Assembly: GCF_900101335.1 (NCBI RefSeq) | Contig: NZ_FNKA01000001.1 | Coordinates: 868,001 to 932,000, forward strand | Length of the DNA stretch: 64,000 nt | From: Quadrisphaera sp. DSM 44207 | GTDB taxonomy: Bacteria > Actinomycetota > Actinomycetes > Actinomycetales > Quadrisphaeraceae | Reading direction: 5' to 3' | Part shown: positions 21,227-56,788 of the stretch, piece by piece | How the letters are laid out: each line of letters begins with the position of its first letter | Position numbering within the stretch: position 1 is the stretch's first letter | Translations under genes and position numbers: made by a program | The notes under the pieces: generated by a model | What the model saw: only the letters and a program-made list of their open reading frames with translations | The model's database searches: none | Told to the model about the DNA's origin: nothing

Positions 21227-21268
21227 CGCGAGGGCGCGGTGCCGCGGCGGCGGCACCGCGCCCTCGCG
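21227..21268 (+). terminator. Hairpin terminator after yceI
   Basis: Perfect 18-bp arms (21227-21244 and 21251-21268) around a 6-nt loop, 12 bp past the yceI stop. It also lies directly before the TetR remnant, so no promoter-proximal room is left for an intact TetR gene. Confidence 0.9.
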
Positions 21269-21279
21269 CGTTCCGGGCG

Positions 21280-21801
21280 GTGCGCACCGCGGCGAGCACG
21301 CGCGACGAGCTGCTCACCGCCCTCGTCGTCGAGGCCTACGACGGCGTGGGCGCCGCGGTCGAGGAGGGCGCAGCACCGGCCCGGGGGCGCACGGTGCGCG
21401 CGCGCTTCGTCGCCGCGTGCCGGGCGCTGCGCGCGTGGGCGCACGAGCACCCGCACCAGTACGCGCTGCTGCACGGCTCGCCCGGCGGCGGCCGAGGACC
21501 GGAGGCCGCGCCGTCCCGGCCCCTCGCGCCGGCCCTGGCCGAGCAGGCCGCGCAGGTGGCGCAGGTGGCGGAGCACCTGGGAGAGGCGGTCGGCCCCGAG
21601 GTGCTGGTGCGGGCGGTGCGGGTGTGGACGGCGCTGCACGGCCTGGTCTCCTGCGAGCTGTTCGGGCAGCTGGCCCGCACCGTCGACTCGGCGGACGCCC
21701 CCTTCGCCCCTGCCCCCGGACCGCTGTTGTGCGCCCTCCTGCGCTCCTACGCGGTGCTCGACCGCAGGAGGGTGCACGACAGCGGTGCCCCGCGGCGCTG
21801 A
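21280..21801 (+). pseudogene. TetR-family regulator remnant lacking the DNA-binding domain
   Basis: The frame encodes about 173 residues resembling only the ligand-binding part of TetR proteins with a WHG-like C-terminal domain: [20 protein letters not shown], then FVAACRALRAWAHEHPHQYA and LLHGSP, then the helix ending VSCELFGQLAR. The usual 40-50-residue helix-turn-helix is absent; only its last helix appears kept (ASTRDELL). Directly upstream lies the yceI terminator, so the 5' part was probably deleted. GTG 21280 is the first possible start after that hairpin. The last 80 bp hold an inverted repeat related to the 41-bp repeats. A small effector-binding protein without HTH is the alternative. 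Confidence 0.65.
21722..21784. repeat. 22-bp inverted repeat related to the 41-bp repeat family
   Basis: 21722-21743 is complementary to 21763-21784 with two mismatches. The left arm shares CGCTGTTGTGCGCCCT with the tandem repeats at 22772-22879. It lies in the 3' part of the TetR remnant. Confidence 0.75.
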
Positions 21802-21894
21802 GGACCTGCCCGCCCGCTCCGGCGCCACCCCTGCTGTCCACAGGCCGAGGCACGGTCGCCCACGGACGCGCGTCCGGGCGCGACGCTGCAGACC

Positions 21895-22773
21895 ATGGCG
21901 AGACGACGGACGCCGGAGGCGCTCCCCGAGGTCTTCAGAGGCGCGGACGCCGTCGCGGCCGGCCTGCTGACGGCGTCGCAGCTGCGAGGGCCGCACGTGC
22001 GACGGGTGCTGCGCGGCGTGTACCGACCGGCGTGGGTGGAGCTGACGCACCCGCTCGCGTGCCGCGCCGCGGGGCTCGTGGCTCCAGGGACGGCTCGGCT
22101 GACCGGACGCTCCCTCGCCACGGTGCTCGGCGTCGAGCTCGCCCGCCCGACGGACCCCGTGGAGATGGTCCTGCCCCACGCCGAGGTGTTCCGCTCCGGC
22201 GGCATCGCGGTCCGCCGGGCCGTCGCCGGTCCCCTGGGTGACGGCAGCTGGCGAGGGGTGGCCGTAGCGCACCCCCTCCGGATGGCCTTCGACCTCGCGG
22301 CCCGTCGTGACACCCCGACGGCGACGGCCTACCTGGACGCGGTCGTCAGGGCCGGTCTCGTGGACGTCGCGCCTCTGTCCGCGTGGCTCGCGGAGCGGTA
22401 CGAGGCGGACGTGCGAGGAGTGCGCCTCGCCTGCTCGCTCGTCGACCCGAGGGCCGCCTCCGTGCCCGAGTCACGGGTGAGGGTGATCCTCGCCCAGGCG
22501 GGGATCCGGGTCGCGGTCCAGCACGACGTCGTCCACGGCGGCAGGTTCGTCGCGCGCGTGGACCTGGCCGTTCCAGAGCTACAGGTCGCCGTCGAGTACG
22601 ACGGCGCCTGGCACGCCCTGCGCGAGCAGCTCGAGCGCGACCGGAGGCGGTCGAACGCTCTGCAGGCCGCAGGGTGGACCGTCGTCCACGTCACCGCAGC
22701 GATGCTCAAGGACCCGCGGGCCGTGGTCGAAGCCGTGCGCGCCGCCATCGCCCGCGCCCGCGCCGTCCGCTGA
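21895..22773 (+). CDS. DUF559/Vsr-fold endonuclease-like protein
   Basis: A 292-residue protein of an actinobacterial family with an N-terminal AbiEi-like winged-helix part (AVAAGLLTASQLRGPHVRRV and LRGVYRP) and a C-terminal DUF559 restriction-endonuclease-like domain: VARVDLAVPELQVAVEYDGA with the catalytic-type Asp/Glu, then LERDRRRSNALQAAGWTVVH. Function is unknown; links to toxin-antitoxin or DNA repair are only by fold. Its base composition seems slightly less GC-biased than neighbours. GACGCT lies 7 bp before ATG 21895. It sits in the segment separating hemL from hemB and its stop runs into the 41-bp repeats. Confidence 0.8.
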   Translation: MARRRTPEALPEVFRGADAVAAGLLTASQLRGPHVRRVLRGVYRPAWVELTHPLACRAAGLVAPGTARLTGRSLATVLGVELARPTDPVEMVLPHAEVFRSGGIAVRRAVAGPLGDGSWRGVAVAHPLRMAFDLAARRDTPTATAYLDAVVRAGLVDVAPLSAWLAERYEADVRGVRLACSLVDPRAASVPESRVRVILAQAGIRVAVQHDVVHGGRFVARVDLAVPELQVAVEYDGAWHALREQLERDRRRSNALQAAGWTVVHVTAAMLKDPRAVVEAVRAAIARARAVR

Positions 22774-22879
22774 CGCGCTGTTGTGCGCCCTGTTGCGGTC
22801 GAGGAGACCCAGGACGCGCTGTTGTGCGCCCAATTGCGGTCAAGGGGCCCAGGGACGCGCTGTTGTGCGCACAACAGCG
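22772..22879 (+). repeat. 41-bp tandem repeat array ending in a 22-bp palindrome
   Basis: Units begin at 22772, 22813 and 22854, exactly 41 bp apart, each opening GACGCGCTGTTGTGCGC. The third unit turns into a perfect 22-bp palindrome at 22858-22879. The array lies between the DUF559 gene and the hemB stop. A diverged array with the same period occurs at 56665-56788 in opposite orientation. Confidence 0.92.
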
Positions 22880-22905: not shown

Positions 22906-23886
22906 TCAGCCGCGGCGCAGGAGGGTGGCCACCTCCGCCGCCCAGTACGTCAGGGTCGCGCTCGCGCCCGCTCGCTGGATCGACAGCAGCGACTCCAGCA
23001 CCGCCCGCTCCCGGTCGATCCACCCGTTGGCCGCCGCGGCCTCGACCATCGCGTACTCCCCCGACACCTGGTACGCCCACACGGGCACGTCGACGGCCGC
23101 CGCGACGTCCGAGAGCACGTCCAGGTACGGCAGGGCGGGCTTGACCATCACGACGTCCGCGCCCTCCGCGACGTCCAGGCGCACCTCGCGCAGGCCCTCG
23201 CGGCGGTTGCCGGGCTCCATCTGGTACGAGCGCCGGTCCCCCGTCAGCGCCGAGTCGACCGCGTCGCGGAACGGCCCGTAGAACGCCGAGGCGTACTTGG
23301 CGGCGTAGGCGAGGAGGACGACGTCGGAGCGGCCCTCGGCGTCCAGCACCGCGCGCACCGCGCCGACCTGCCCGTCCATCATCCCGGACAGGCCCAGCAG
23401 CGACGCGCCCGCCGCCGCCTGGGCGAGCGCCGTGGAGCGGTACCGCTCCAGCGTGGCGTCGTTGTCGACCCGCCCGGCGGCGTCGAGGACGCCGCAGTGC
23501 CCGTGGTCGGTGAACTCGTCCAGGCACAGGTCGGCCATGACCACCGCGGCGTCCCCGACCGCCTGCGCCACCGCGCGCAGCCCGGTGTTGAGGACGCCCT
23601 CGGGGTCGTCCGCGCCCGAGCCGCGCGCGTCGCGCACGGCGGGCACGCCGAAGAGCATCAGCCCCCCGACGCCGGCGGCGACGGCCTCCTCGGCCGCCTC
23701 CACGAGCGAGGGCACGGTGTGCTGGACGACGCCCGGCATGGAGGCGACCGGCGCGGGCGAGCGCAACCCCTCCTTGACGAACAGCGGCAGCACCAGGCGC
23801 GCCGGGTCCAGGCGCGTCTGGGCGGTCAGCGACCGCAGCGCCGGCGTGGCCCGCAGGCGCCGCGGCCGCTCGAGCGGGAAGCCCAC
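22906..23886 (-). CDS. hemB: Delta-aminolevulinic acid dehydratase (porphobilinogen synthase)
   Basis: A 326-residue cytoplasmic enzyme joining two 5-aminolevulinates into porphobilinogen. Key motifs: N-terminal RLVLPLFVKEG, the metal-site loop VVMADLCLDEFTDHGHCGVL with three Cys/His ligand positions, YAAKYASAFYGPFRDA with the first Schiff-base Lys, and VVMVKPALPYLDV with the catalytic Lys. GTG 23886 gives the family-typical start; only 10 bp separate it from the hemD stop, so it belongs to the rex-hemA-hemC-hemD-hemB operon as last gene. Confidence 0.97.
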   Translation of the reverse strand: MGFPLERPRRLRATPALRSLTAQTRLDPARLVLPLFVKEGLRSPAPVASMPGVVQHTVPSLVEAAEEAVAAGVGGLMLFGVPAVRDARGSGADDPEGVLNTGLRAVAQAVGDAAVVMADLCLDEFTDHGHCGVLDAAGRVDNDATLERYRSTALAQAAAGASLLGLSGMMDGQVGAVRAVLDAEGRSDVVLLAYAAKYASAFYGPFRDAVDSALTGDRRSYQMEPGNRREGLREVRLDVAEGADVVMVKPALPYLDVLSDVAAAVDVPVWAYQVSGEYAMVEAAAANGWIDRERAVLESLLSIQRAGASATLTYWAAEVATLLRRG

Positions 23887-49919: not shown

Positions 49920-50047
49920 GCACGGGGGCGCCCGCGTGCCACTCCTGTGCGCACGGGGCGCCCCCGTGCCACTCCTGTGGGGCACGGGGCGCCCCCGTGC
50001 TCGTCCTACGGGCACTGGGCGCCCCCGTGCTCATCAGGAACGGGCAC
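49920..50047. repeat. Four 30-32-bp tandem repeats with internal palindromes
   Basis: Units start with GCAC at 49920, 49951, 49982 and 50012, with a partial fifth at 50044. Each holds a near-palindrome of the type GCACGGGGCGCCCCCGTGC, then a variable ACTCCTGTG or TCGTCCTACG. The first two units are the most alike. They fill the space between mutY and argA stops (convergent). Confidence 0.9.
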
Positions 50048-50069
50048 AGCGCCGCCCAGTCGGGTAGGG

Positions 50070-50146
50070 GCGGCGGGCCGAGGGGACGGGCCTGCGCGGC
50101 GGGCCAGGGCGGCGGGCCGAGGGCGGCGGGCCAGGGCGGCGGGTCA
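50070..50146. repeat. 13-14-bp GC-rich tandem repeats at the argA 3' end
   Basis: GGGCCAGGGCGGC and GGGCCGAGGGCGGC alternate from about 50070 to the argA stop (50144). Probably replication slippage; no gene content. Confidence 0.7.
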
Positions 50147-50677
50147 GCCGTCCAGGCGCATCAGCATCCGGGTGTTGCCCAGGGTGTTCGGCTTCACGCG
50201 CGCGAGGTCGAGGAACTCCGCGACGCCGTCGTCGTGGGAGCGCAGCAGCTCGGCGTAGACGTCCGGCTCCACCGGCGCCCCGTCGATGACCTCGAAGCCG
50301 TGCGCCGCGAAGAAGGGCACCTCGAACGTCAGGCAGAAGACCCGCCGGACGCCGAGCTCGCGCGCGTCGTCCAGGAGCGCGCGCAGCACCGCCGAGCCGA
50401 CGCCGCGGCCGCGGTGCCCGGCGGCGACGGCGAGGGTGCGCACCTCGGCGAGGTCCTCCCACATCACGTGCAGGGCGCCGCAGCCGGCCAGCTGGGGGCC
50501 GCGCCCGTCGTCGACCTCGGCGACCCGGAACTCCGGCACGCCCTCGTAGTAGGAGACGGCCTCCTTCGCGACGAGCACCCGCTGGTCCGCCAGCGGCGCG
50601 GTCAGCGCGCGGATCGCTCTCACGTCCCTCGTGCGGGCCCGCCGCACCCGCACCGACGCCGGGGACGCGATCGTCAT
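50144..50677 (-). CDS. argA: Amino-acid N-acetyltransferase (actinobacterial ArgA-type GNAT)
   Basis: A 177-residue GNAT enzyme very similar in pattern to the short mycobacterial N-acetylglutamate synthase, which starts arginine synthesis from glutamate and acetyl-CoA. VRTLAVAAGHRGRGVGSAVL is the acetyl-CoA loop (RGxGxG), with VAKEAVSYYEGVPEFRVAEV, GCGALHVMWEDLAEVRTLAV and the conserved tail VAEFLDLARVKPNTLGNTRM. ATG 50677 has CAGGAT ending 6 bp upstream. A non-ArgA GNAT is possible but the tail is characteristic. Confidence 0.88.
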   Translation of the reverse strand: MTIASPASVRVRRARTRDVRAIRALTAPLADQRVLVAKEAVSYYEGVPEFRVAEVDDGRGPQLAGCGALHVMWEDLAEVRTLAVAAGHRGRGVGSAVLRALLDDARELGVRRVFCLTFEVPFFAAHGFEVIDGAPVEPDVYAELLRSHDDGVAEFLDLARVKPNTLGNTRMLMRLDG

Positions 50678-56578: not shown

Positions 56579-56664
56579 GGTCCGCGCCCGCCACGGCGCT
56601 GCGCGGGCGCACGCCCCTGCACGGGCGGCCCCCACCGGCCACCGGACCGGAGCGGACCGCGATC

Positions 56665-56788
56665 GGGCGCACAGATGCGCTCCGAGGGGCCGCTGGAGCG
56701 CAACTGGGCGCACGAATGCGTTCCGAGGGGCCGCTGGAGCGCAACTGGGCGCACGAATGCGTTCCGAGGCGCACGGATGCGCTCGACG
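56665..56788 (-). repeat. Second 41-bp tandem repeat array
   Basis: Plus-strand units begin GGGCGCAC at 56665, 56706 and 56747, again exactly 41 bp apart; units 1 and 2 differ at only a few bases and unit 3 is cut short by a GCGCACGGATGCGCTC variant. Read on the minus strand each unit has GCGCCCAGTTGCGCTC, close to GCGCCCAATTGCGGTC of the array at 22772-22879. It fills the gap between the decayed methyltransferase and panC. Confidence 0.9.

Follow-up and report, generated by a model that had tools for sequence, protein, structure and literature searches.

A family of dispersed palindromic repeats paired with genes for AbiEi-like/Vsr-like predicted nucleases in Actinomycetes

The window, the whole stretch of 64,000 nucleotides that was analysed, contains a gene for a predicted nuclease of 292 aa that is bracketed on both sides by the same palindromic repeat. 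On its right lies a tandem array (array 1) and on its left an inverted pair of the repeat of this array, located on the contig at C1:889718-889753 (+) and C1:889757-889788 (-). A second array (array 2) is a dispersed copy of the same family. The features are as follows, in positions of the window:

21718-21788, + strand: left bracket, inverted pair of the repeat of array 1, inside the 3' end of the preceding reading frame
21833-21843, + strand: CTGTCCACAGG, the window's variant of a DnaA-box-like motif, role unknown
21895-22773, + strand: gene for the AbiEi-like and Vsr/I-Bth0305I-like protein (MTES_1575/DUF559), 292 aa
22772-22879, + strand: array 1, bracketing the nuclease gene on its right with three 41-bp units
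22906-23880, - strand: hemB (ALAD), converging on array 1, given as context only
56655-56788, - strand: array 2, 41-bp units

The preceding reading frame (about 21239-21801) encodes a TetR-like C-terminal part whose start region is apparently lost or frame-shifted, and its last codons run through the repeat element.

In array 1, unit starts lie at 22772, 22813 and 22854, with a spacing of exactly 41 bp, and a perfect palindrome of 22 bp, CGCTGTTGTGCGCACAACAGCG (22858-22879), is closed by the last unit. TRF reports the array at 22772-22874 with a period of 41 and a score of 155. Array 2, which lies between convergent methyltransferase-like and panC-like genes, is reported at 56665-56769, also with a period of 41 (score 189). 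The core GTGCGCCCARTTGCGSTC is common to both arrays, on the + strand in array 1 and on the - strand in array 2. It has 8 matches at up to 3 mismatches compared to 1.0 expected, a number reached by none of 100 dinucleotide shuffles. A preliminary description of the window, made from the sequence alone, had claimed the three 41-bp units with their palindrome, the equal period of array 2 and the shared core in opposite orientation, and all of these claims held. A core not above chance, which it had named as refuting its reading, was not found. Its claim that neither array lies in a gene held only partly since the ORF at 21895-22773 shares the final two bases of its stop codon with array 1, and the description had missed that this gene is bracketed by the repeats of array 1. 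Two further GC-rich tandem arrays were found by TRF at 49920-50147, one with a 30-bp period around GCACGGGGCGCCCCCGTGC and one with a 13/27/40-bp period; by eye, they are unrelated to the 41-bp family.

A sequence-only model of the unit was used to search the window's genome (G000; 3.2 Mb in four contigs, 97% complete), counting two or more units as a locus. About 12 such loci were found:

Contig C1: 213, 523, 889.7, 890.8 (array 1), 924.7 (array 2), 1078 and 1098 kb
Contig C2: 336 kb
Contig C3: 155, 370 and 423 kb
Contig C4: 143 kb

The more than about ten dispersed copies proposed as a check in the preliminary description are thus present, and its claim of an element family instead of slippage held, given these loci and the arrays of the same architecture that occur throughout the sister genus at a period of 41-42 bp. 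Slippage alone was rejected because of the dispersed loci. The mobility it had suggested is not shown directly, and only indirect evidence of copying is available.

Each unit is an imperfect palindrome of 22-26 bp, repeated with a period of 41 bp, or 42 bp in the sister genus. Its main dyad, P1 (CGCTGTTGTGCGCCCAATTGCG), is imperfect and has GCGC at its centre, and a second, weaker dyad, P2, follows near GGGGCCC. The P1 centres are 41 bp apart both in direct repeats and in the inverted pairs at 523 and 1098 kb of C1. In the sister genus, the stem differs (ACCGCAGCCGGGCGCCCGGCTGCGGT), while the GCGC centre and the spacing are kept: among 91 spacings between neighbours, 81 were 42 bp, nine 41 bp and one 43 bp, and a rearranged control motif had no match in the 717 kb of this analysis. 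Inspection by eye further showed that certain arrays of two units (L136 and L158) form perfect 27-bp inverted repeats, in which changes between species compensate each other. A scan of genome contigs for the exact motif returned only three Streptomyces matches, without a period, and a scan of viral contigs returned none; judged from these scans, the exact motif is lineage-specific. No Rfam family matched above its curated gathering score anywhere in the window. A mir-3064 match with 25 bits, compared to a gathering score of 76, was taken as chance.

The placement of the arrays was assessed in 48 arrays of the sister genus, mostly from targeted regions plus one whole 365-kb contig. Genes were called with a simple codon-usage script, for which stops are exact and 5' ends rough. 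Of these arrays, 22 lie in convergent gaps, 23 in codirectional and two in divergent ones, and one lies inside a called gene. Hence 45 of the 47 intergenic arrays are in non-divergent regions, whereas among 340 background intergenic gaps with a minimum length of 60 bp, 87 are divergent. The arrays lie 3' of the nearest stop codon, mostly at a distance of 5-25 bp. In the orientation of the upstream gene, 17 arrays have more G.U than A.C mispairs, 4 have fewer, and 2 are ties. Because of this placement and asymmetry, the arrays are oriented 3'-end elements of genes, and the repeats form a genome-wide family with a dyad-to-dyad spacing of 41-42 bp at gene 3' ends. Arrays also occur at orthologous gene ends in different species, where the number of units differs (in one case, G011 has five and G009 two), and therefore many copies are old and inherited. 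The 3' end of hemB, whose flanks served as control and ortholog check, carries no such array in the sister genus. One hemB flank used as a control (G008, L206) carries a 42-bp-period array with a score of 0.86.

The main rival explanation, or else a second role of the arrays, is that they are tandem terminators or hairpins stabilizing mRNA 3' ends, with the nuclease gene adjacent by accident or using them as terminators. It is supported by the short distance to stop codons, the near absence from divergent regions and the excess of G.U over A.C in sense orientation. In addition, arrays 1 and 2 fold better than shuffled sequences (z -2.1 and -3.3). However, a single sequence per genome is not normal for terminators, dozens of loci serve only few of the genome's genes, and no T run follows the arrays. 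It also leaves unexplained why a gene-specific palindrome brackets the nuclease gene on two sides. As a full explanation it is therefore considered unlikely, although a role in termination or RNA stability agrees with the placement and the G.U results and is possibly the benefit to the host.

The protein encoded beside array 1 scores above the model cut-off for DUF559 and just under it for MTES_1575 (E 6.7e-9), and the cut-off of the NCBIfam vsr model is not met (20.8 bits compared to 97.85). Its AlphaFold2 model has a pLDDT of 93.4. In this model, residues 187-291 match the homing endonuclease I-Bth0305I best (Z 13.7, rmsd 2.5 over 95 residues) and also Vsr (Z 10.1). Residues 1-184 match the AbiEi antitoxin 6y8q (Z 9.8, rmsd 6.1 over 174 residues) and Rv2827c 1zel (Z 7.5 over 176 residues). 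Across 34 homologues, E192, D223 and D249 are invariant, and E234 is present in at least 90%. The protein is thus predicted from the model to combine an AbiEi-like N-terminal half with an EDxHD/Vsr-like C-terminal domain, and its binding and cleavage of DNA are inferred. The downstream neighbour of the gene is hemB, and no toxin partner (DUF1814/AbiEii) was seen beside it, without a systematic toxin search.

The association between repeats and nuclease genes was assessed for 21 close homologues with at least 50% identity, whose flanks were read in 13 genomes of the family. An array with a 40-42-bp period (score of at least 0.63) was found on at least one flank of all 21 and on both flanks of 15. 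For 600 random genes from the same genomes, a background that includes real dispersed arrays, these numbers were 61 and 3. The left and right copies of the bracket palindrome agree and are usually inverted. When left/right similarity was required to exceed the 99th percentile of 600 mismatched pairings, 17 of 20 close loci and 18 of 31 distant loci from other actinobacteria passed, compared to none of nine hemB controls; the remaining 13 distant homologues failed. The palindrome is specific to each gene, or to each set of orthologues: for instance, it is GCACTCTCCCAGGAGAGTGC for the 63%-identical paralogue at C1:649456 in the window's genome, GCACTTTCCGCGGAAAGTGC in G004, G007 and G009, CGACTTCGCTGCCGAAGTCG in G002, and GGGCGATGTGTGGCCATGTCGCCC in G005 and G010. 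In this clade, every nuclease gene has its own palindrome on two sides, and homologues elsewhere in Actinomycetes are likewise bracketed. The pairing of repeat and nuclease is shown by these data; binding, cutting and a spread driven by the nuclease are inferred. Homologues of the MTES_1575/DUF559 type occur in 160 of 247 sampled genomes of the class, with up to nine matches per genome.

An alternative for the nuclease is that it is a defence or self/non-self enzyme and that the arrays mark or protect the chromosome. Weak PADLOC matches to restriction-type and homing-type nuclease models speak for this. However, no linked methyltransferase or defence genes were noted, albeit without a systematic survey, and gene-specific inverted brackets are a better fit to selfish copying. 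For these reasons, this alternative is considered very unlikely.

The dispersal of a bracket palindrome was tested out of sample with a 23-mer taken only from the flanks of a distant homologue (38% identity) in G213. At up to 3 mismatches, it has 342 copies in G213 and none in six other genomes, five of them from the same family, and a reversed-pattern control had none. The copies inspected are inverted pairs with a length of 56 bp. In 400 kb of G009, which hold the gene of family F, seven sites of this family were found beyond the two brackets at up to 5 mismatches, and family I has three such sites in G002. For families M and N, only bracket copies were found in the sampled DNA, and for family B none in the 464 kb sampled from G000, a sample that does not hold its gene. 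Since the mismatch-tolerant family matrix counts bracket copies, these were subsequently excluded; families A, E, F and I keep dispersed copies; at 5 mismatches, the results for E, C and O are noisy. An exact 12-mer matrix of the flank motifs across samples was too strict to be informative. Families E and F are both present in G009 and G011, though only one matching gene was found in each, and dispersed copies can therefore outlive their cognate gene. Copy numbers outside G000 and G213 rest on models, patterns and samples. In the clearest cases, namely the family of the window, family F in G009, and G213, the bracket palindrome is dispersed in the genome. Another dispersed palindrome family, O, occurs around GTGATCATGGGCG in G000 and relatives (L048, L074, L189, L190), and its palindrome is common to the left and right of other, more distant nuclease homologues.

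At orthologous sites, brackets and cassettes differ between species. The galactokinase-like, nrdF-like and DUF2277-like neighbours mentioned here were recognized from their sequences by eye, without a family search. Beside one galactokinase-like gene, G011 and G012 carry E-type arrays, and G004, G007 and G009 carry F-type arrays. At the nrdF-DUF2277 locus, the type is C in G009 and D in G001 and G004, so that at the same locus in different species the palindrome type has changed on both sides of the nuclease gene. In these three genomes, the interval with its array-gene-array cassette spans 1352-1395 bp, compared to 305 bp in G007, where the cassette is absent and another palindrome is found. 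Only filled and empty sites were seen, and gain and loss of the cassette cannot be told apart. Together with the 342 copies as opposed to none, its presence and absence are indirect evidence of copying. At the empty site in G007 (L312), GTGCAGAAGT...ACTTCTGCAC is found, similar to the palindrome that flanks a further nuclease homologue in this genome (L192). In G011, the E-type nuclease gene is split, with its C-terminal end about 1 kb downstream beside the right array (L181/L140; C2:564224-566153), and the interrupting DNA resembles an insertion sequence.

The explanation we consider likely is a two-part system consisting of a palindromic repeat family and one AbiEi-like/Vsr-like nuclease gene bracketed by the same repeats. 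The targets of AbiEi and Rv2827c are inverted repeats of 23 bp, paired or in tandem (PMC7319586), and for this reason it is inferred, without binding data, that the N-terminal AbiEi-like domain would bind the palindromes of about 23 bp (P1). I-Bth0305I is a homing endonuclease which dimerises on a target of nearly 60 bp (PMC3943268). Because of the likeness to it, the C-terminal EDxHD/Vsr-like domain is inferred to nick or cut DNA or folded hairpins at or near the palindromes, or at new sites. Through host repair, new copies of the repeats would then arise shortly after stop codons, now and then together with the gene as a complete repeat-gene-repeat cassette, and tandem units might expand later through slippage or recombination. 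Once in place, the hairpins would probably also shape transcript 3' ends. Against this model stands that no binding, cleavage or transposition has been observed. The presence of families E and F in both G009 and G011, the lack of dispersed copies of M, N and B in the sampled DNA, and the 13 distant homologues that failed the flank test also count against it. To our knowledge, strand transfer by Vsr-type nucleases has not been described, and copying would therefore need host repair.

Alternatively, the palindromes could be binding sites of the AbiEi-like domain without any mobility, acting as an autoregulatory operator with a dispersed regulon or as nucleoid sites. In favour of this, members of the AbiEi family recognize 23-bp inverted repeats within the promoters of their own genes (PMC7319586), and the dyad spacing of 41-42 bp is close to four helical turns. 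However, arrays also lie downstream of the gene, the dispersed arrays are at gene 3' ends and not at promoters, and up to 342 copies occur in one genome, so that this alternative appears unlikely.

The nearest analogue of the repeat-nuclease system are REPtrons, in which RAYT/TnpA-REP is combined with GTAG-REPs and REPINs (PMC3116915, PMC8266576, PMC3733652). As in REPtrons, a single-copy enzyme gene is bracketed by palindromes of a genome-wide dispersed family, which occur mostly as extragenic singletons, inverted pairs and clusters, and enzyme and repeat differ together between lineages. In contrast to REPtrons, the enzyme is an AbiEi-like and Vsr-like predicted nuclease and not an HUH tyrosine transposase, and the window's clade has strict 41-42-bp tandem arrays. 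The similar architecture and 3'-end placement could point to classical REPINs driven by a RAYT. However, Y1_Tnp (PF01797), the HUH tyrosine transposase of the RAYT group, was found in none of the 13 family genomes, with controls positive in 5 of 14, and no unpaired GTAG or CGTC tag was seen at palindrome ends in the aligned units. This explanation is therefore all but excluded; it could hold only if all 13 genomes had recently lost a RAYT. The partnership works like a REPtron but fails membership due to its unrelated enzyme and the lack of a RAYT.

Other known systems share single features. REPs with a CGTC tag are likewise dispersed palindromes without a known dedicated transposase, but they were described from Proteobacteria, Chlorobi, Bacteroidetes, Spirochaetes and Thermotogae, and no bracketed nuclease gene was reported for them (PMC3733652). 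The BIME-2 clusters of E. coli are, like the arrays, alternating palindromes in tandem at gene 3' ends, but their sequence is unrelated and they are RAYT-associated. The nuclease resembles the EDxHD homing endonuclease I-Bth0305I in its C-terminal fold and conserved acidic residues, and this group in being multi-domain proteins with long DNA targets. However, I-Bth0305I sits in a mobile phage intron, whereas the gene described here is bracketed by palindromes without any sign of an intron (PMC3943268). The N-terminal half shares the two-domain fold of the type IV antitoxins AbiEi and Rv2827c, which differ in that the protein described here has a fused nuclease domain (PMC7319586). Mycobacterial interspersed repetitive units are also short tandem repeats dispersed in intergenic actinobacterial DNA, but neither a palindromic structure nor a link to a nuclease gene is known for them; no sequence comparison was made.

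A search of the open-access literature, which mostly does not cover subscription papers and preprints, found no description of the repeat-nuclease pairing, nothing tying DUF559 to repeats, and nothing on this system under REPIN/RAYT in Actinobacteria or Vsr with palindromic repeats. The suggested AbiEi-like/Vsr-like partnership of repeat and nuclease is thus probably undescribed, although its novelty remains provisional. A bolder reading, towards which we lean only slightly, is that AbiEi-like/Vsr-like (DUF559/MTES_1575) proteins are enzymes dedicated to copying or maintaining dispersed palindromic repeats in Actinobacteria. The repeats would then form a large, lineage-diverse class and, with their enzymes, an independently arisen counterpart of RAYT/REPIN that relies on a nuclease of the homing endonuclease type, and the specificity of the protein would change along with the sequence of the repeat. 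If this is true, the common DUF559/MTES_1575-type proteins, a group without an assigned role, gain a partner, and dispersed palindromes in genomes without a RAYT are explained. Furthermore, many natural protein-palindrome pairs with jointly changed specificity would be available, making the binding code and the spread directly testable.

A further element accompanies the nuclease genes. Of 51 homologues, 24 have the DnaA-box-like pattern T[TC][AG]TCCACA in the 300 bp upstream (27 matches compared to about 0.2 expected) and one has it downstream; it is also present near one of 48 dispersed arrays. The motif TCGTCCACA is mostly located 50-140 bp upstream of the start of the nuclease gene, at about 100 times the background; the strict pattern does not match the copy in the window. 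The DnaA-box-like motif belongs to the nuclease gene and not to the repeat.
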